The notes below the pieces were generated by a model. That model had not been told where the DNA came from and did no database searches. It saw only the letters and a program-made list of their open reading frames with translations. From Sphingomonas sp. IW22 (lineage in GTDB: Bacteria > Pseudomonadota > Alphaproteobacteria > Sphingomonadales > Sphingomonadaceae), in the NCBI RefSeq assembly GCF_041321155.1, contig NZ_JBGGWB010000005.1, forward strand, positions 1-64,000: DNA of 64,000 nucleotides, in the 5' to 3' direction. Shown in pieces: positions 34,049 through 42,476 of the stretch. How positions within the stretch are numbered: position 1 is the stretch's first letter; every line of letters starts with the position of its first letter. The position numbers were made by a program, and so were the translations under genes.

Positions 34049-36460
34049 ATGGTCTCCGCATCTCTGTCTGCCCCCGATTCCGCTCCGCTAAACCGACAGG
34101 CGTTGTCGCTCGCGCTGGGCGGCGGTGTGGCGGCGGCGCTGGTTGCCCTGTGGGGGCTGGGCGACGGGCGGGTGGCGATTTCGTTTCTGGCGGGGGCCTT
34201 GCTGATCGCAGGCGGCGTGCTCGCATGGTCGCGGCTGCGTGGTGCCAAGGCCGTGGCAGCGATGCCCGACTGGTCGCTGGCGCAAACGCTGGCGTCGATC
34301 AGCGAAGACGCGGTCGCGGTGTCGGATCGTTCGGGGCGGCTGGTCTGCGCCAACCCGGCCTATCAGCGGATGTTCGGCGGGCTGCCGATGCCGTCGGGCG
34401 TGCCGCTGGACGACGATTCGCAGGTCCGGCTGGACGATCTGGCGCGCGCCGCCTGGCGCGACGGGGAGGTGGAGGCCGCAGGTGCGCTGCGCGAAGGACG
34501 GGCTATCATGGTGCGGGTCAGCCGCGCGGGTGACTCGACGCTGGTGTGGCGGTTCGCGCCGGGGCGTGGCGACGGTGCGCCCGGTTTTGGCGGTCCCGAT
34601 CCGCTGCCGCTGGCGGTGGCCGCGATCAAGGGTGAGGCGGGCGAGCGGCTGGGCCTGGCTGGTGTGATGGCGGTCGCGATCCAGCCCGATGGCCGGATCG
34701 AGGCGGCGAACCGCGTCTTTGCCACCCGCGCCACCGGCAGCGCCGACGGCGTGGTCGAGGGGCGCGACTTTGCGCGCCTGATGCTGCTGGAACCCGGCGG
34801 CCATCTGCGTTTCGAGCGGGAGGGGGAAGCGGGCAATCCCGTGCGCCTGATCCAGGTCCCACTTTGCAGCGGCCCGGAGTCGCCGCTGTTCCTGGCGCTG
34901 GTGGATGAAGAGGATGCGGGCCTGCCCGCTTCCATCGGCAATGATGTCGCGGCGCATGTCCGCGCGCTGGTCACGCTGTTGCCCATCGGCGTCGCGATGA
35001 TCGACCGTGAGGGGCGCTTCGTTCACATGAACAGCGCCTTTGCCAGGGCCACTGCGGTCAAGGCCGCCGCGCCGCCGCTCTACCCCGGCGATCTGGTGGT
35101 GCGCGAGGACAAGGCCGCGCTGGCCGACGCGATCCGGCGTTTTTCGGGCGGCGCCAGCCATGCCGCCGACATGCAGGTCCGCCTGGCGATCCGGCCGGAA
35201 GAGCCGGTGTCGCTCACGCTGGCCGGTGCGCGCGGGCTGGGCGACGCGGCGGTGATCCTGTGCCTTAAGGAATCGGGGCAGGAAGGGCGCCTCAAGCGTC
35301 AGGTGGCACAGGCGACCAAGATGCAGGCCATTGGTCAGCTGGCCGGCGGCGTCGCGCATGACTTCAACAACATCCTGACCGCGATCATCGGTCACAGCGA
35401 CCTGATGCTGAAACGCCATTCGCCCGGCGACAGCGATTATGACGATATTCAGCAGGTGCGCGCCAATGCCAATCGCGCCGCTGCGCTGACGCGGCAGCTT
35501 CTGGCCTTTTCCCGGCAGCAGACGTTGCGGCCGCAGGTGCTGCAACTGCCCGATGTCGTGTCAGAGGTATCGCACCTGCTGACCCGCCTGTTGGGTGAAA
35601 CGGTGCGGCTGGAGGTCAAGCACGGTCGCGGGCTGGGCGCCGTGCGTGCCGATCCGGGACAGCTTGAACAGGTGATCGTCAACCTGTCGGTCAATGCCCG
35701 CGACGCCATGCTGTCCAAGGACCCAAGCGGCGCCGGAACGCTGACCATCGAGACGTTGAGCATCGACCGTGCAGAGGTGAAGCGGATGGGCAATGAGGTG
35801 CTGCCCGTCGCGGAATATTCGGTACTGCGGATCAGCGACACCGGCACCGGCATCCCGACCGATGTATTGCCAAACATCTTCGAGCCGTTCTTCACGACCA
35901 AGGAACTGGGCAAGGGCACGGGGCTGGGCCTGTCCACCGTCTATGGCATCGTCAAGCAATCGGGCGGCTATATCTTTGCCGATTCCCCGCCGGGGCGCGG
36001 GGCGACGTTCAGCATCTATCTGCCCGTCTATGCCGCAGGCGAACTGCCCGCGCCCAAGCCGGTAAAGCGTGCGCCGCGGCGCCAGCATACCTGGGGCAGC
36101 GGCACGATCCTGCTGGTGGAGGATGAAGCGATGGTGCGCGCGGTCGCCGAACGCGCGCTGTCGCGACAGGGTTACAAGGTGCTGGTCGCGGACCATGGCG
36201 AGGCCGCGCTGGATCTGCTGCAAAGCACCGGGCGACCTGATCTGCTGATCTCGGACGTGGTGATGCCCGTGATGGACGGCCCGACCATGGTGCGAAAGGT
36301 TCGCGAAAGCTATCCCGACCTGCCGATCCTGTTCATGTCCGGCTATGCCGAGGAACAGTTGCGCCGATCCATCGACCTCGAAAACGTGGCGTTTCTGCCC
36401 AAGCCATTCTCGGTCCAGCAGCTTGCCGAAGCGGCACGCGAAGCGCTGGGCAGCGATTGA
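34049..36460 (+). CDS. cckA: CckA-type hybrid histidine kinase
   Basis: 803 residues. Two N-terminal transmembrane helices (about residues 18-52) are followed by PAS-like sensing regions, the DHp domain with [20 protein letters not shown] (phospho-His437), an HATPase domain ([51 protein letters not shown]) and a C-terminal receiver with Asp736 ([13 protein letters not shown]). This layout and the sequence around the His match CckA, which feeds phosphate through ChpT to CtrA and controls the cell cycle or motility. It is divergent from chvI and followed by a single-domain receiver. Confidence 0.92.
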
Positions 36461-36500: not shown

Positions 36501-36845
36501 ATGACCGAAGCCAAGCGTATCCTCATCGTCGAGGACGAGCCCCTGATCGCCATGATGCTTGAGGATTTCCTCGACGCGCTGGGCAAGGAGGTGGCCGGAA
36601 CCGCCGAAACCGTCGCGAGCGCGCTCGACCGAGTCGCGGCTGGCGGCATCGACGCGGCGATTCTCGACGTCAACCTGCGGGGTGGCGAGAAAAGCTGGCC
36701 TGTGGCTGACGCGCTGGCAGCGGCGGACATTCCGTTCGTGCTGGCAACCGGCGGTGACACGGTGGCGCCCGACCATTCGTCGCGCCCGGTACTGGCCAAG
36801 CCCTTTACCATGGACGGTGTGGAGCGGGCACTCTCCTCGCTCTGA
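36501..36845 (+). CDS. single-domain response regulator
   Basis: 114 residues, a lone receiver domain. The acidic pocket is VEDEP, the phospho-Asp is in AAILDVNLRGG, and the conserved Lys is in VLAKPFTMDGVE. No output domain, so it works through protein contacts or as a phosphate sink. It lies 40 bp after cckA on the same strand and could exchange phosphate with the CckA system, which is inferred from position alone. Confidence 0.88.
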   Translation: MTEAKRILIVEDEPLIAMMLEDFLDALGKEVAGTAETVASALDRVAAGGIDAAILDVNLRGGEKSWPVADALAAADIPFVLATGGDTVAPDHSSRPVLAKPFTMDGVERALSSL

Positions 36846-36991
36846 TCGCGGCGGGCGACGGCCCGGCGATGGCGAACGCATATTGCCGCCGCGCATTATC
36901 GAAACCGTTGAAGTCGAAGAGGTTGCAGGTGACATTGCTGCGGGGCGAACAGGTGGCGACCGCCGACCGCGCCGCCGGGTGTCGGTAGCTG

Positions 36992-38875
36992 ATGTCCGGC
37001 ATCGCGGGGCTGTTCTATCCCGGCACACCAAAGCCCGTCGATCCCGGCCGGGTTGCGCACATGTGCGACGCCATGGCGCATCGCGGCCCCGACGGGGCAG
37101 GGGTGTGGACCGGACCCGGCATCGGGCTTGGCCATCGGCGGCTGGCCACCATCGACGCGAGCGGCGGGCGTCAACCCATGGCGAGCGAGGACGGCACGCT
37201 GACCGTCAGCTTTGACGGCGCCATCTATAACCTTCACGAATTGCGCGCAGGGCTGGCGGAAAAGGGCGCCCGGTTCCGCACCGACAGCGATGCCGAAGTG
37301 CTGCTGCACGGCTGGCGCGCGTGGGGGCCGGACTTGCTGTCGCGGCTGAACGGCATCTTCGCCATCGCCCTGCACGATGCGGCGCGCCAGACGCTGTTCC
37401 TTGCCCGCGACCGGCTGGGCGCCAAGCCGCTCCACCATGTCGAACTGGCTGACGGCGCGGTCGCCTTTGCCAGCGAGTTGAAGGGGCTGCTGGCCCATCC
37501 GCTGGTGCGCCGCTCGGTCGATCCCACCGCGATCGAGGATTTTATGGGCCTGGGCTACGTCCCCGACGACGCGTGCATCGTCGCCGGGGTGCGAAAGCTG
37601 GCGGCGGGGCATTTTCTGTTGATTCAGCGCGGGCATCCGGTGCCGTCGCCGCGCCAATGGTGGGACATCGACTTTTCGGCGCGCACCGGCGGCGGCGTCG
37701 CGGATCTGACCGAGGCACTGACCGGACGGCTGCGGGCGGCTGTGCGTTCCCGCATGGTTGCGGATTTGCCGCCGGGCGCGTTTCTGTTAGGCGACATCGA
37801 TACGGCAGCGGTCGTCGCGCTGATGGCGGAATCGTCGAAGCAGGCGGTGCGGACTTTCGCCGTCGGCGCTGATGCCGGCGATGCGGATGAGCGCGCCACC
37901 GCTCGCTCGATCGCCGCGCGTTTCGCGACCGATCATCGCGATGCGGCGGTGGGGGATGAAGACCTTGCACTGATCGACACTCTTGTCGCCGCCTTTGACG
38001 AGCCGTTTGGCGATCCGTCCGCACTGGCCACCTATCGCCGGTGCGAACTGGCGCGCGGGCGGGTCAGCGTGGCGCTGTCGGGCGTGGGCGCGGACCAGGC
38101 GCTGGCGGGCGATCCGCGCCACCGCGACCATGTGGTGGAGGGGCGGATGCGTGCGGTGATGCCTGCGCCGCTGCGCCGCGCGGCGGGCGCGCTTGGCCGC
38201 ATCTATCCGCAGGCCGATTGGATGCCCCCTCCCATGCGCGCGCGCACCCGGCTGCTGGCGCTGGCAGAGGATGGGCCGACCGCTTATGCGAAAGGCGTCA
38301 GCGTGACGCGGCCCGAATTGCGCGCGCGGCTATATAATGATGCGATGATGCGCGCGCTGGGCGACCATGCGGCGGAACTGCGATATTGGCGGACCATGCG
38401 CGCGGCGCCGGGTCGCGACGCGTTGGACGCCGCGCAATATGCCGATCTTCGCCACGCCTTGTCCGGTGGTATTCTGACGGAGATCGACCGCGTCGGCATG
38501 GCGGCGGGGCTGGAGGTGCGCGAACCGCTGCTCGACCACCAGTTGATCGAATTTGCCGCCACCTTGCCCATATCGCTGCGGATTCGCGGCGGGCAGGGCA
38601 AATGGCTGATGAAGCGCGCACTGGAGCCATGGTTGCCGCGTGAGGTGCTGTATCGCTCGCCACCGGTGCCGGTGGCGCCGCTTGGCGTATGGTTTCGCGG
38701 ACCGCTGGCGGAAGAGGGGCTGGCACTTGCCCGTGCGCCGATGCTGGCAAACTGGTTTCAACCCGCTGCGATCGAAACGCTGGCGCGCGATCATCAGGCC
38801 GGGCGCGCCGATCATGGCCGCACCCTGTGGCAGCTGATGATGCTGGAACGCAGCACCCGCCGCCTGTTCGGCTGA
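36992..38875 (+). CDS. asparagine synthetase-like protein with degenerate active sites
   Basis: 627 residues, full length and without frameshifts, alignable throughout to AsnB-type enzymes and most like the exosortase-associated amidotransferases. The catalytic features are altered. The N-terminal nucleophile is Ser2 (ATG-TCC, MSGIAG in place of MCGIAG). The oxyanion Asn of FNGEIYN is Asp75 (FDGAIYN). The PP-loop SGGxDSS reads LGDIDTA (266-272). The GADExFxGY block reads GADQALAGD (about 362). Scaffold motifs such as HRRLATID, EVREPLLDHQLIEFA and VWFRGPLAEE are kept. So neither ammonia release nor aspartate adenylation looks possible by the known mechanism. It may be a neofunctionalised paralogue or decaying enzyme. 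No sugar or exosortase genes adjoin it. Confidence 0.8.
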   Translation: MSGIAGLFYPGTPKPVDPGRVAHMCDAMAHRGPDGAGVWTGPGIGLGHRRLATIDASGGRQPMASEDGTLTVSFDGAIYNLHELRAGLAEKGARFRTDSDAEVLLHGWRAWGPDLLSRLNGIFAIALHDAARQTLFLARDRLGAKPLHHVELADGAVAFASELKGLLAHPLVRRSVDPTAIEDFMGLGYVPDDACIVAGVRKLAAGHFLLIQRGHPVPSPRQWWDIDFSARTGGGVADLTEALTGRLRAAVRSRMVADLPPGAFLLGDIDTAAVVALMAESSKQAVRTFAVGADAGDADERATARSIAARFATDHRDAAVGDEDLALIDTLVAAFDEPFGDPSALATYRRCELARGRVSVALSGVGADQALAGDPRHRDHVVEGRMRAVMPAPLRRAAGALGRIYPQADWMPPPMRARTRLLALAEDGPTAYAKGVSVTRPELRARLYNDAMMRALGDHAAELRYWRTMRAAPGRDALDAAQYADLRHALSGGILTEIDRVGMAAGLEVREPLLDHQLIEFAATLPISLRIRGGQGKWLMKRALEPWLPREVLYRSPPVPVAPLGVWFRGPLAEEGLALARAPMLANWFQPAAIETLARDHQAGRADHGRTLWQLMMLERSTRRLFG

Positions 38876-38899: not shown

Positions 38900-38976
38900 T
38901 GGTCGGGGCGACAGGATTCGAACCTGCGACCCCCACACCCCCAGTGTGATGCGCTACCAGGCTGCGCTACGCCCCG
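38900..38976 (-). tRNA. tRNA-Pro (anticodon GGG)
   Basis: A 77-nt cloverleaf with an encoded CCA. Acceptor CGGGGCG pairs with CGCCCCG. D-arm GCGC/GCGC with loop AGCCTGGTA. Anticodon stem TCACA/TGTGG with loop CTGGGGG gives anticodon GGG (Pro, codon CCC). T-loop TTCGAAT. It is convergent with the asparagine-synthetase-like gene; no integrase or att duplication adjoins it. Confidence 0.95.
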
Positions 38977-39027: not shown

Positions 39028-40374
39028 TCAGGCGGTGGGTGCGAAAGATGTGTCGGCGCGCACTTCGTTCAGAAACCCGCGCGCCTGCCCCGCCAGCGCG
39101 CGCGCCTGTGCCGCCAGTCTTTCGGCCAGCGTCTGCATCTCTGCCGATGATTCGCGGGCAAGTGTGGCCTGATCGCCGATGCCCTGTGCCTGGGCGCGCA
39201 TCGCCTCTGCCCCCGATGCGGCTTCGCCGACATGGGTGGCGATGGTGTGCATGGTGCCGCGCTGGGTTTCGGCAGCGTCCATGATCCGGGTCGAGCGATC
39301 AGCGATGCTGCGGACGGCACCGTCGATCCTGCGATGCGCTTCGGTCACGTCGGCGATGGCGGCCTGAACATCGGCAACATGGGTCGCGACGGTGTCGGCG
39401 GCGCGCGCGGTCTGCGTCGACAATTGTTTGATCGCCCCGGCCACCACAGCAAACCCGCGCCCGGCATCGCCGGCACGCGCCGCCTCGATCGTGGCGTTCA
39501 GGGCCAGCATGTTCACTTCGCCCGCGATGCTGCCGATGATCTGGGCAATCGCGCCGATCGATTCGGCGGATCTGCCCAGCGCCTCGGTCCGGGCGGCGCC
39601 GTCGCCCACCACCGACACGGCATCGGCCACCAGCGCCTGTGCCGCGCGCGTGTCATCGGCCACGCCGGTCAGGGCGTGCAGCAGGGCGCGGCCCTCGGCC
39701 TCGATCTCCTCAAGATGGCGTGCGCCACGGGCGGTGGTGGACGCCATTTCGGCAGCGCGCGTGCCTGCGTCGGCGGCGCGGACGTCGGTGGCGTTGCCGT
39801 GATCCTTGATCGCGTCGGCAAGCTGGGCCAGTTCGCACGCCAGCCGCTCAACCTCGGCTTCGAAACCGATGCTGGCCTGTTCGATCCGCGTTGCCCGTTC
39901 CAGCTGGCCGCGCGCGCGCTCAGCCTCGTTGCGGGCGGCCAGCAGCACCAGCCGCCGGTTCGACAGTGTGGCGAACAGCCGCCCCGCGCGCGTCAGGATC
40001 ATGCCCTCGCTGCCGTCAGCCGCCTGATAGCATGCGATCAACTCTGCCACCGGACGCCCCGCATCCACGATCGGCACAGCGCGGATATAATCGCACAGGC
40101 TGGCGCCATAGGCCGGGTTGCGCAGCAGCGCGTGCCCATAGGGGTTTAGCAGCAGCTGGCGGATATCGCGCTCCAGCAGGCCACCGACCGGGCGCACATC
40201 GTCATCGACCACCGCGATGAAGCGTGCGTCTGGATTGCGCTGGAACAGATCGGCCGCCACCTCAAGCCGGGCATCGCGGGCGATCGCCAGGGGCGCGCGC
40301 TCGGCGGGGGTCAGCCAGTCGACGTTGCCGCCGGTGGGTGCGTCGGGGATGGCGGTGGTCGACGGTCGAAACAT
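39028..40374 (-). CDS. soluble methyl-accepting chemotaxis-like protein with N-terminal CBS-like domain
   Basis: 448 residues with no transmembrane segment. The N-terminal third ([33 protein letters not shown]) looks like a CBS-pair-type sensory module. A coiled coil follows, then the MCP signalling domain with its conserved hairpin tip region [30 protein letters not shown]. Cytosolic receptors of this type normally cluster with CheA/CheW. No che genes are seen in the window, so it may signal to a distant array or another partner. It is divergent from yajC. Confidence 0.82.
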
Positions 40375-40551: not shown

Positions 40552-40887
40552 ATGTTCGTTTCTCCCGCATTCGCTCAATCCGCCGGCGCAGCGTCGCCCG
40601 GCATCGCTGGTCAGATCATCGGCATCGCGCCGCTTATCCTGATCTTTGTCGCCTTTTATTTCCTGATGATCCGTCCGCAGCAAAAGCGGATGCGCACGCT
40701 TCAGAACGCGATCGCCAATGCAAAGCGCGGCGATACCGTGGTCACTGGCGGCGGCCTGGTCGGCAAGGTGACCAAGGTCGAGGATCAGCATCTTGAGGTC
40801 GAGATCGCCCCCAATGTCCGCGTGCGCGTGGTCAAGGGGACGATTGCCGATGTGACGCCGCTGGGCGGCAAGCCGGCCAACGACTGA
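40552..40887 (+). CDS. yajC: Sec translocon accessory protein YajC
   Basis: 111 residues. A single transmembrane helix (IIGIAPLILIFVAFYFLMI) is followed by the family motif RPQQKRMRTLQNAI and a small beta domain (GDTVVTGGGLVGKVTKV). It forms the SecDF-YajC complex that aids protein export across the inner membrane. Its stop overlaps the secD start by one base (TGATG), so the operon yajC-secD-secF is tightly coupled. Confidence 0.93.
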   Translation: MFVSPAFAQSAGAASPGIAGQIIGIAPLILIFVAFYFLMIRPQQKRMRTLQNAIANAKRGDTVVTGGGLVGKVTKVEDQHLEVEIAPNVRVRVVKGTIADVTPLGGKPAND

Positions 40888-42476
40888 TGCTGGACTTTCC
40901 GGCCTGGAAGAAGTGGCTCACCTGGGCCACGGTGGTTTTCGGCGTCCTGCTGTCGGTGCCGTCGCTGTTGCCGCCGTCGGTTTCGAACCAGCTTCCCGGC
41001 TGGATGACGCGGACCACGGTCAATCTCGGCCTCGATCTGGCGGGCGGCAGCTATATTCTGCTCGAAGCGCAGACCAGCGACGTCCGCAATCAGCGCCTTG
41101 AGTCGATGCGGGACACCATTTTAGGTGAAATGCGCCGCGCGCCGCGCATTGCCATCGGTGACATTTCGACTCGCGACGGTCGCGTCAGCTTCATGGTCCG
41201 CGACGTCAGCCAGGTCGATGCCGTGCGTGAGCGGCTGTTGCCGCTGACGGCGGGCGCGGGGCTGACCGGCCAGCGCGACTGGGATATCGAAGTGCGCGAC
41301 ACCACGCGCTTTGTGATGACCCCGACCGAAGCGGGCCTGACACAGGCGGTCGAGCAGGCGATGGTCGACGCGACCGAAGTCGTGCGTCGCCGCGTCGACG
41401 AACTGGGGACCCGCGAACCGACGATCATTCGTCAGGGCGCGAACCGTATCGTCGTGCAGGTTCCGGGTCTTCAGGACCCGCAGGCGCTGAAGGAATTGCT
41501 GGGCAAGACCGCGCGTCTTGAATTCAAGCTGGTCGACACGACCGCCGACCCGGCAGCAATTGCCCGCAATCAGGCACCGATCGGCAGCCAGATCCTGCCC
41601 TATCCCACGGCTGGCGGGCCGATCGCGGTTCAGCGTTCGACGATCATTTCGGGCGACCAGATCGCTGACGCGCGTCAGGAATATGATCCCCAGACCGGCG
41701 CGCCAATCGTCGGCATCCGTTTCAATGCGGAGGGCGGTCGCCGCTTTGCCCGTGTGACGCAGGAGAATGTCGGCAAGCCCTTTGCCATTATCGTCGACAA
41801 TTCGGTGATCTCGGCGCCCAACATCAACGAACAGATCCTTGGCGGCGCGGCCAGCATTTCGGGTGGGTTCACCGTCGAAAGCGCCAATCAGCTCGCGATC
41901 GCGCTGCGTTCGGGCAAGCTGCCCGTTGACCTGTCGGTGATTGAGGAATCGACGATCAGCTCCGAACTGGGTGCCGATTCGCGTACTTCGGGCATCATCG
42001 CAGGTGCCATCGGCACGCTGGCGATCATCATCCTGATGCTCGTCGCCTATCTGCGCTTCGGTGTGTACGCCAACATCGCGCTGGTCGTTAACGTGCTGAT
42101 GATCATCGGCGTCATGGCGCTGTTCAACGCGACGCTGACGTTGCCGGGCATCGCCGGCTTCGTGCTGACCATCGGTGCCGCAGTCGACGCCAACGTGCTG
42201 ATCAACGAACGAATCCGTGAGGAACGGCGGCGCGGGCGCAGCGTCAATGCCGCAGTCGAGTTCGGCTATCGGGAGGCGACTCGCGCAATTTTTGATGCCA
42301 ACGTCACCAACGCCATTGCGGCGGTCATGATGTTCGTGTTCGGCGCGGGACCGGTTCGCGGGTTCGCCGTCGTGCTCATCATCGGTATCGTCACGTCGGT
42401 CTTCACCGCGGTCACGTTCACCCGCCTGATGGTCGCGAACTGGCTCCAGAAGCGTCCGCGCGAGCTGGTGATCTGA
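40887..42476 (+). CDS. secD: protein translocase subunit SecD
   Basis: 529 residues. An N-terminal transmembrane helix, the GLDLAGGSYILLEA signature, the periplasmic P1 domain (about residues 60-340) and a C-terminal bundle of five transmembrane helices with GAAVDANVLINERIREE and FDANVTNAIAAVMMFVFG, the conserved proton-channel segments. It uses proton motive force to pull secreted proteins out of SecYEG. The stop is eleven bases before secF. Confidence 0.96.
   Translation: MLDFPAWKKWLTWATVVFGVLLSVPSLLPPSVSNQLPGWMTRTTVNLGLDLAGGSYILLEAQTSDVRNQRLESMRDTILGEMRRAPRIAIGDISTRDGRVSFMVRDVSQVDAVRERLLPLTAGAGLTGQRDWDIEVRDTTRFVMTPTEAGLTQAVEQAMVDATEVVRRRVDELGTREPTIIRQGANRIVVQVPGLQDPQALKELLGKTARLEFKLVDTTADPAAIARNQAPIGSQILPYPTAGGPIAVQRSTIISGDQIADARQEYDPQTGAPIVGIRFNAEGGRRFARVTQENVGKPFAIIVDNSVISAPNINEQILGGAASISGGFTVESANQLAIALRSGKLPVDLSVIEESTISSELGADSRTSGIIAGAIGTLAIIILMLVAYLRFGVYANIALVVNVLMIIGVMALFNATLTLPGIAGFVLTIGAAVDANVLINERIREERRRGRSVNAAVEFGYREATRAIFDANVTNAIAAVMMFVFGAGPVRGFAVVLIIGIVTSVFTAVTFTRLMVANWLQKRPRELVI

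Follow-up and report, generated by a model that had tools for sequence, protein, structure and literature searches.

A gene for a 627-residue protein in Sphingomonas sp. IW22, located in the first 64,000 nucleotides of contig NZ_JBGGWB010000005.1 (assembly GCF_041321155.1; this whole stretch is called the window), derives from the amidotransferases of the XrtA/PEP-CTERM system and lacks the catalytic residues of both active sites, being a pseudoenzyme in the sense of an enzyme homologue without catalytic residues. Comparison with other members of the genus makes it likely that the gene is one of several pseudoenzymes of recurrent origin, and that it is held by purifying selection. The initial annotation had described a single full-length asparagine synthetase-like protein with both sites rewritten; dead copies, as far as sequences can tell, recur across the genus, which is beyond that single-case account. 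The gene and its altered motifs are located in the window as follows:

36992..38875, plus strand: orphan XrtA/PEP-CTERM-type amidotransferase of 627 residues, pseudoenzyme, both active sites lost
36995..36997, plus strand: codon 2, nucleophile Cys changed to Ser
37214..37222, plus strand: codons 75-77, NGE changed to DGA, oxyanion Asn and Glu lost
37787..37807, plus strand: codons 266-272, PP-loop SGGVDSS changed to LGDIDTA
38078..38113, plus strand: codons 363-374, reading SGVGADQALAGD; intact relatives have SGDGADE at 363-369 and Tyr at 374
38660..38677, plus strand: codons 557-562, conserved KMGFVT changed to PPVPVA

The open reading frame at 36992-38875 begins with ATG and has no internal stops, and the replacements called by the initial annotation (Ser2, Asp75, LGDIDTA at residues 266-272, GADQALAGD within 364-374) are all present. 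None of the four motifs of the TIGR03108 family (Cys2, NGE, SGGVDSS, SGDGADE) is retained, their places being taken by Ser2, DGA, LGDIDTA and SGVGADQ (residues 363-369; GVGADQALAGD at 364-374), and the catalytic residues of asparagine synthase are missing from both sites. Tyr374, Lys497 and other residues conserved in relatives are also lost, and KMGF, at about residues 557-560, is gone. Neither the broken frame nor the neutral pattern of change of a pseudogene was found, the frame being open over all 627 codons. Pfam domains GATase_7, GATase_6 and Asn_synthase span most of the protein. The best NCBIfam match is TIGR03108 (XrtA/PEP-CTERM amidotransferase; 716.7 bits over residues 1-623), and the type had thus been rightly assigned, though the score is lower than the curated cut-off (816.9 bits); the intact relatives P0003 and P0004 (P, G and L numbers denote proteins, genomes and loci) score 866 bits. 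The cut-off of TIGR01536 (asparagine synthase) is passed (377.2 vs. 267.1 bits). Descent from the TIGR03108 family is seen in the gene tree, where the window gene stands beside the intact P0003 (support 99/96).

In a first protein search 6319 proteins matched among 7999 scored, and the best 120 of the 6319 were compared. Cys2, NGE, SGGVDSS and SGDGADE are present in 119/119 of the best matches listed, P0002 being left out. The window gene changes 31 of 200 sites invariant in the 119, whereas none of the 119, each left out in turn, changes more than 3 of 203, and its changes therefore exceed chance. P0002, a metagenomic protein 95% identical to the window protein, is the closest among the matches listed. 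It shares the motif changes, a point the initial annotation had asked of homologues, but keeps Ser266, and hence not LGDIDTA exactly, and has His in place of Gln369. Sequencing error is an unlikely cause of the motif changes, most of which are also found in P0002, from another source. The check for an intact paralogue in the window genome gave none, the second match being restricted to residues 45-178 (E 1.6e-4, 32% identity).

The amidotransferase was monitored in members of the genus with and without XrtA. Many genomes were chosen for a low or missing amidotransferase score, so that the proportions given below for XrtA-plus and XrtA-minus genomes are not genus-wide ones; an amidotransferase match at E 1e-100 was found in 267 of 295 genus genomes. 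XrtA-minus denotes the absence of a TIGR03109 match above cut-off, and applies to 29 genus members. TIGR03109 matches are wholly absent only from the window genome, G154 and G066; in most of the others a weaker match scores around 130-140 bits and probably reflects a different exosortase. The 29 include G018 and G083, in which xrtA is in pieces, and G020, which is only 79% complete. The orthologue resides in 16 of the 29, and is degenerate in 13 (the window genome and 12 others), all full length, in frame and with both sites wrecked. Intact motifs were found in G002, G018 and G083 (residue 2 not covered in the latter). Orthologues with a stop or a broken frame were not listed for any XrtA-minus genome. 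None of the 22 sequence-checked XrtA-plus members is degenerate, five of them being seen in part only (glutaminase motifs unseen in three, GADE in two). The remaining XrtA-plus genomes, of 29 in total, are three with paralogues only, one without the orthologue, and G012, G021 and G081, which stood outside the check. Two XrtA-plus loci, L025 and L027 (G006 and G001), have NGC for NGE, the other amidotransferase motifs being intact. Likely early stages of XrtA loss are L164 (G018), with stops in xrtA, G083 (C1, 2740642-2741419), with xrtA in two frames, and L165 (G002), where xrtA was not found beside seven other operon genes; each of the three has an intact-motif amidotransferase.

In an alignment of 297 rows (286 proteins and 11 loci, some sequences identical) all four motifs are present in 249. 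Among the 48 incomplete rows, 37 have none, seven have one and four have two; P0209 and P0235, among the 48, lack the N-terminal part. The 21 protein rows P0192-P0212 make up the S. phyllosphaerae group, which takes its name from three of its members.

The trees indicate that dead copies arose several times separately within Sphingomonas. Changes of state were counted as gain or loss of the label dead, a return from dead to active being taken as unlikely. The ten dead-copy genomes in a SecD tree of 27 rows need five changes, all forced by well-supported branches. Dead copies need four changes, three of them forced, in a gene tree of 33 rows, and nine, all forced, in a wider gene tree of 75 rows (23 dead), made by a quick method and with long branches flagged. 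In the gene tree the window pair stands beside the intact P0003, the G164/G146 group beside the intact G002; in the SecD tree the window genome groups with G279, G027 and G296, and G164/G146 with G002. A single origin of all dead copies was rejected, the p values of the approximately unbiased test being 0.0002 for one all-dead clade, 6e-6 with the longest branches removed, and 2e-5 for the window pair and the G164/G146 group alone. The rejection is if anything conservative, because convergent residues and long branches would join dead copies.

Convergence was assessed at 228 sites where 99% or more of the 249 intact rows agree, the state of a lineage being its commonest residue. The lineages were W (window gene and P0002), T (G164, G146, P0123, P0124), R (S. 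rubra, two copies of one sequence), K (G061) and Y (S. phyllosphaerae group), 13 other dead rows being excluded. Changed sites number 37 in W, 50 in T, 38 in R, 61 in K and 79 in Y. Sites changed in W overlap those changed in T at 26 positions (7.9 expected), R at 23 (6.2), K at 25 (8.7) and Y at 32 (13.0), with p from 3e-11 to 9e-13; the remaining six pairs of lineages likewise overlap (p <=2e-7). Ten sites are changed in all five lineages (C2, N75, E77, M122, V144, S272, Y374, F379, K407, K497). Asp at 75 and Ala at 272 prevail in 5/5 (P0124, of lineage T, has Glu at 272), and V144A is common to four; Asp makes up about 0.21-0.25 of single-step missense changes from the Asn codon AAC (kappa 2.1-3). 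Active-site windows, drawn by the analyst, are enriched in changes in all five lineages; in W 16 of 40 fully invariant sites are changed inside them, and 7 of 115 outside (p 2e-6).

The sites which are spared are as consistent as those which change. At 107 of the conserved sites all five dead lineages keep the residue. T, R, K and Y together keep 114, and W changed none of these (0/114), while mutability-weighted draws gave a mean of 18.3 and a minimum of 8 in 20,000. Neutral decay would not be expected to spare the same structural sites. The same test is less clean in the other lineages (T 6/120, R 4/117, K 16/126, Y 22/133 changed).

Codon models were fitted to dead lineages related to the window gene. 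Seven sequences of the S. phyllosphaerae clade, all members of which are dead, give a ratio of nonsynonymous to synonymous substitution (omega) of 0.109 over 552 codons, and six give 0.104 over 557; a value of 1 is rejected, twice the log-likelihood difference being 905 and 704, respectively. On the G164/G146 branches omega is 0.14 against a background of 0.087, and a value of 1 is worse by 138 log units. The whole window branch gives 0.13 against 0.068, a value of 1 being worse by 76 units; this is weak evidence, because part of the branch predates the loss, synonymous substitutions approach saturation and the GC content of third codon positions is shifted. For two sister dead lineages codon models thus indicate retention by selection; for the window gene only the test on the 114 sites does.

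The order of loss can be read from extant proteins, mostly metagenomic, the XrtA status of their sources not being known. P0247, P0255 and P0274 keep Cys2 and have DGE with SGGVDSA. P0267 and P0282 have Ser or Gly at residue 2 and DGE, the synthetase motifs SGGVDSS and SGDGADE being intact. In P0122, P0169, P0226, P0254 and P0284 both sites are altered and GADE is retained. From these sequences the glutaminase site seems to be lost first and GADE last; an exception is P0285, with Ser2, an intact NGE and a broken PP-loop. Most of the S. phyllosphaerae group have also lost the PP-loop Asp (e.g. LGGLGDA).

AlphaFold2 models of the window protein and of the shorter P0192 have mean predicted local distance difference scores of 91.7 and 88.5, and predicted template modelling scores of 0.92 and 0.91, respectively. 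Among solved structures the closest in fold are the hydroxyamidotransferase TsnB9 (7ylz), AsnB (1ct9) and human ASNS, followed by beta-lactam and carbapenam synthetases. The glutamine ligands of AsnB (PMC11296641) are Arg49, Asn74, Gly75, Glu76 and Asp98; by alignment they correspond to Arg50, Asn75, Gly76, Glu77 and Asp100 in window numbering. Arg50, Gly76 and Asp100 are kept in 5/5 dead lineages, whereas the nucleophile and Glu77 are lost and Asn75 is changed to Asp.

The surroundings of the gene bear the mark of a deletion. The relevant features are:

34049..36460, plus strand: CckA-type gene (PAS, histidine kinase and receiver domains; the name CckA is that of the initial annotation), syntenic left flank
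36501..36845, plus strand: short gene, called a receiver in the initial annotation, without a Pfam match at E 1e-8; marks the left edge of the deletion and is syntenic in relatives
36846..36991, no strand: deletion scar, 146-bp spacer, matched by the 3' end of relatives' xrtA
38900..38976, minus strand: tRNA-Pro(GGG)
39028..40374, minus strand: MCP signalling-domain gene, right flank
40887..42476, plus strand: secD, right flank, species-tree marker

The position between a cckA-linked receiver-type gene (36501-36845) and tRNA-Pro (38900-38976, minus strand) is as first described. The distance from the receiver-type gene to the amidotransferase, 146 bp in the window, is 10,643-10,798 bp in the near relatives G279, G027, G316 and G296. 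In G316 and G279 the stretch matches NCBI models of the XrtA system (polysaccharide export, chain length, deacetylase, FemAB, TIGR03087 glycosyltransferase, XrtA); tyrosine autokinase and ATPase models are matched only under cut-off, and one gene has no match. In G279 the amidotransferase starts one base after the xrtA stop codon. Within the spacer, 36900-36958 and 36962-36988 align with the 3' end of relatives' xrtA, local scores being 53 (L123), 44 (L125) and 35 (L126) against maxima of 30, 31 and 28 in 200 shuffles; the score of 29 with L124, below the shuffle maximum of 31, is not significant alone. A TAG stop at 36986-36988 precedes the ATG by three bases, an arrangement shared with L125. 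The right flank is partly syntenic, yajC and secD following in G279 and L036-L039. The profile search of the window genome (43 contigs, completeness given as 100%) with TIGR03109 returned no XrtA match. The short gap, the scrap of xrtA and the synteny of the flanks indicate that the XrtA/exopolysaccharide operon beside the gene is deleted in place and that its last gene stayed, and the gene lies away from polysaccharide genes, as had been remarked, because of this deletion. Three further polysaccharide export matches are found elsewhere in the window genome.

A PrsK kinase (452 bits, above cut-off) and an adjacent sigma-54-type response regulator (G000 C1, L130:8610-12052, minus strand) are retained despite the loss of XrtA; PrsK was dropped as a marker of this loss, being present in the window genome too. 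PEP-CTERM targets were no more useful, as no matches were found in G010 and G153 either, and G010 has XrtA. A relative of the operon ATPase (38-59% identical) lies upstream of the dead amidotransferase in G164, G146 and G061 (L155, L156, L157), so that the operon deletions seem to differ in their end points. In the S. phyllosphaerae clade (L158, L159, L161, L163) a LacI-family regulator, the family being tested for L161 only, lies about 60-115 bp upstream on the same strand. No neighbour gene is common to the dead-copy lineages looked at, and the neighbourhood gives no functional clue. Scans around the window gene returned the tRNA (Rfam) and a single terminator-like site, roughly what chance alone would give.

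Several observations weigh against retention by selection, and would suit a leftover of the deleted operon, decaying neutrally, in which a stop or frameshift is yet to come. The operon is gone, 31 of 200 invariant sites are changed, and omega on the window branch is about twice the background, a whole-branch value which mixes the periods before and after the loss. Of the 31 differences between the window protein and P0002, 10 fall among the 298 near-invariant sites of 627, which is not far short of the neutral share of about 15, and constraint is, on this comparison, loosened at the freed sites. Omega in the dead clade (0.10) exceeds that of intact copies (0.068-0.087) and of SecD (0.013 in five S. 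phyllosphaerae-clade genomes), which indicates looser constraint in the dead clade. The orthologue is missing in 13 of the 29 XrtA-minus genomes, eight of which have only intact-motif paralogues, about 40% identical, and five none, so that the gene is dispensable in some lineages; absence of the gene in close relatives had been named by the initial annotation as a sign of decay, along with frameshifts, which are unlisted. Start signals are weak, a clear Shine-Dalgarno sequence not being seen by eye and a scan for sigma-70-like promoters around the gene finding none. Models made by AlphaFold2 with an alignment tend toward the family fold even for unstable members. Neutral decay is nevertheless unlikely. 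It leaves unexplained that the sites of change are predictable from other lineages, that 0/114 sites kept in those lineages are changed where 18 are expected, and that sister dead lineages have omega of 0.10-0.14. The missense load predicts 3.4 stops in the window gene and none is seen, which alone gives only P = 0.03. The preference of the initial annotation for a pseudoenzyme over decay is borne out by the 114 sites, by an omega of about 0.10 in the all-dead clade, and by the lack of frame-broken orthologues among those listed.

Slightly less probable than decay is selection for inactivation only, an uncoupled active amidotransferase being harmful once XrtA is lost and no new function arising. 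The recurrence of N75D and the alteration of the glutaminase site first in P0247, P0255, P0274 (Cys2, DGE), P0267 and P0282 are in its favour, but it does not account for ongoing purifying selection across species, nor for the 107 sites kept in five lineages; deletion would do equally, and absence of the gene does occur, and intact-motif copies remain in the XrtA-minus G002, G018 and G083. An enzyme of changed chemistry, i.e. a ligase resembling beta-lactam synthetase that uses ATP but does not depend on glutamine, is improbable. P0267 and P0282 have lost glutaminase motifs only, so that a ligase of this kind may represent the first stage; the structural matches include beta-lactam and carbapenam synthetases. 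The synthetase site kept by those enzymes is, however, altered in the window gene, which has lost the PP-loop (S266L, G268D, S271T, S272A), D365V, E369Q and KMGF besides the glutaminase residues, as most of the S. phyllosphaerae group have lost the PP-loop Asp. A single ancient origin, or horizontal transfer of an already formed pseudoenzyme, could explain N75D, S272A and the V144A of four lineages as inherited, but is very improbable given the rejected single clade, the intact closest relatives of the window pair (P0003) and of G164/G146 (G002), the like separation of these genomes in the SecD tree, and remaining neighbours which differ.

For a recurrently evolved pseudoenzyme held by selection, the following course may be proposed. 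The ancestor is an amidotransferase of the XrtA/PEP-CTERM system, retained when the adjoining XrtA/exopolysaccharide operon was deleted; glutaminase and ATP-pyrophosphatase residues were lost, and the folded, non-catalytic protein is probably kept by selection. The path may open in the glutaminase site, with N75D and a Ser or Gly replacing Cys2, go on with Glu77 to Ala or Thr, and reach the PP-loop, and with it the synthetase site, later. Selection against useless glutamine hydrolysis after XrtA loss may favour the glutaminase-site step. The emptied pocket, with Arg50 and Asp100 kept and Asp75 gained, may bind an amino acid or amide but leave it uncleaved, and signal this to a partner; a pocket holding an amino-acid backbone without cleavage is what a sensor would need. 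A non-hydrolysing, amino-acid-binding sensor or regulatory subunit is accordingly no more than a tentative candidate role, favoured because the glutamine ligands Arg50 and Asp100 survive, and a scaffold-only role would match the sequence data nearly as well. Of the genus at large it may be conjectured, with similar caution, that XrtA loss in Sphingomonas either entails loss of the amidotransferase or sets it on a fixed path to a new non-catalytic, selected family of amino-acid sensors or regulators, made repeatedly.

Pseudoenzymes have mostly been studied singly and after the fact, and repeated loss of a pathway in one genus provides a replicated natural experiment. Stages can be compared from intact copies (G002, G018, G083) through half-dead ones (P0267, P0282, P0247) to fully dead ones. 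The order in which an enzyme is switched off thereby becomes testable, as does the question whether fold or ligand pocket is the reason for keeping a dead one. Of eight dead copies scanned, 6/8 pass the TIGR01536 cut-off and 8/8 fail that of TIGR03108. P0122 (S. rubra) and P0123 bear the public name asparagine synthase (glutamine-hydrolyzing), a misleading label for dead relatives without catalytic residues, and one which would mislead metabolic models. A literature search covering few subscription journals returned no report of such a pseudoenzyme.

Among known systems, the TIGR03108 amidotransferases are the closest, homology extending over residues 1-623 and the window gene being nested in the family, its ancestor, on the tree; the window gene differs in its score below cut-off, in the loss of four motifs, and in a genome without XrtA from which the operon is deleted. 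In a freshwater Sphingomonas, 12 transposon hits of colony-morphology mutants fell in a gene named amidotransferase, exosortase associated, within a cell-associated polysaccharide cluster (PMC11340318); a role of the intact enzyme in polysaccharide synthesis would fit, if the gene is of the same family. AsnB (1CT9, TIGR01536) is similar in that the window protein passes the cut-off and shares the fold (TM-score with 1ct9 0.62-0.65, depending on the query), and dissimilar in having the nucleophile, oxyanion Asn, PP-loop and GADE which the window gene lacks. Beta-lactam synthetase, an AsnB relative, and carbapenam synthetase have lost the glutaminase and have an active synthetase domain; they share the AsnB fold and match the window protein in structure, but in the window gene both sites are gone. 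Plant PDX1.2 is likewise a dead relative of an enzyme retained as a regulatory protein. PDX1.2 works alongside active paralogues, whereas no paralogue was found in the window genome, and the loss described here recurs after loss of the pathway.

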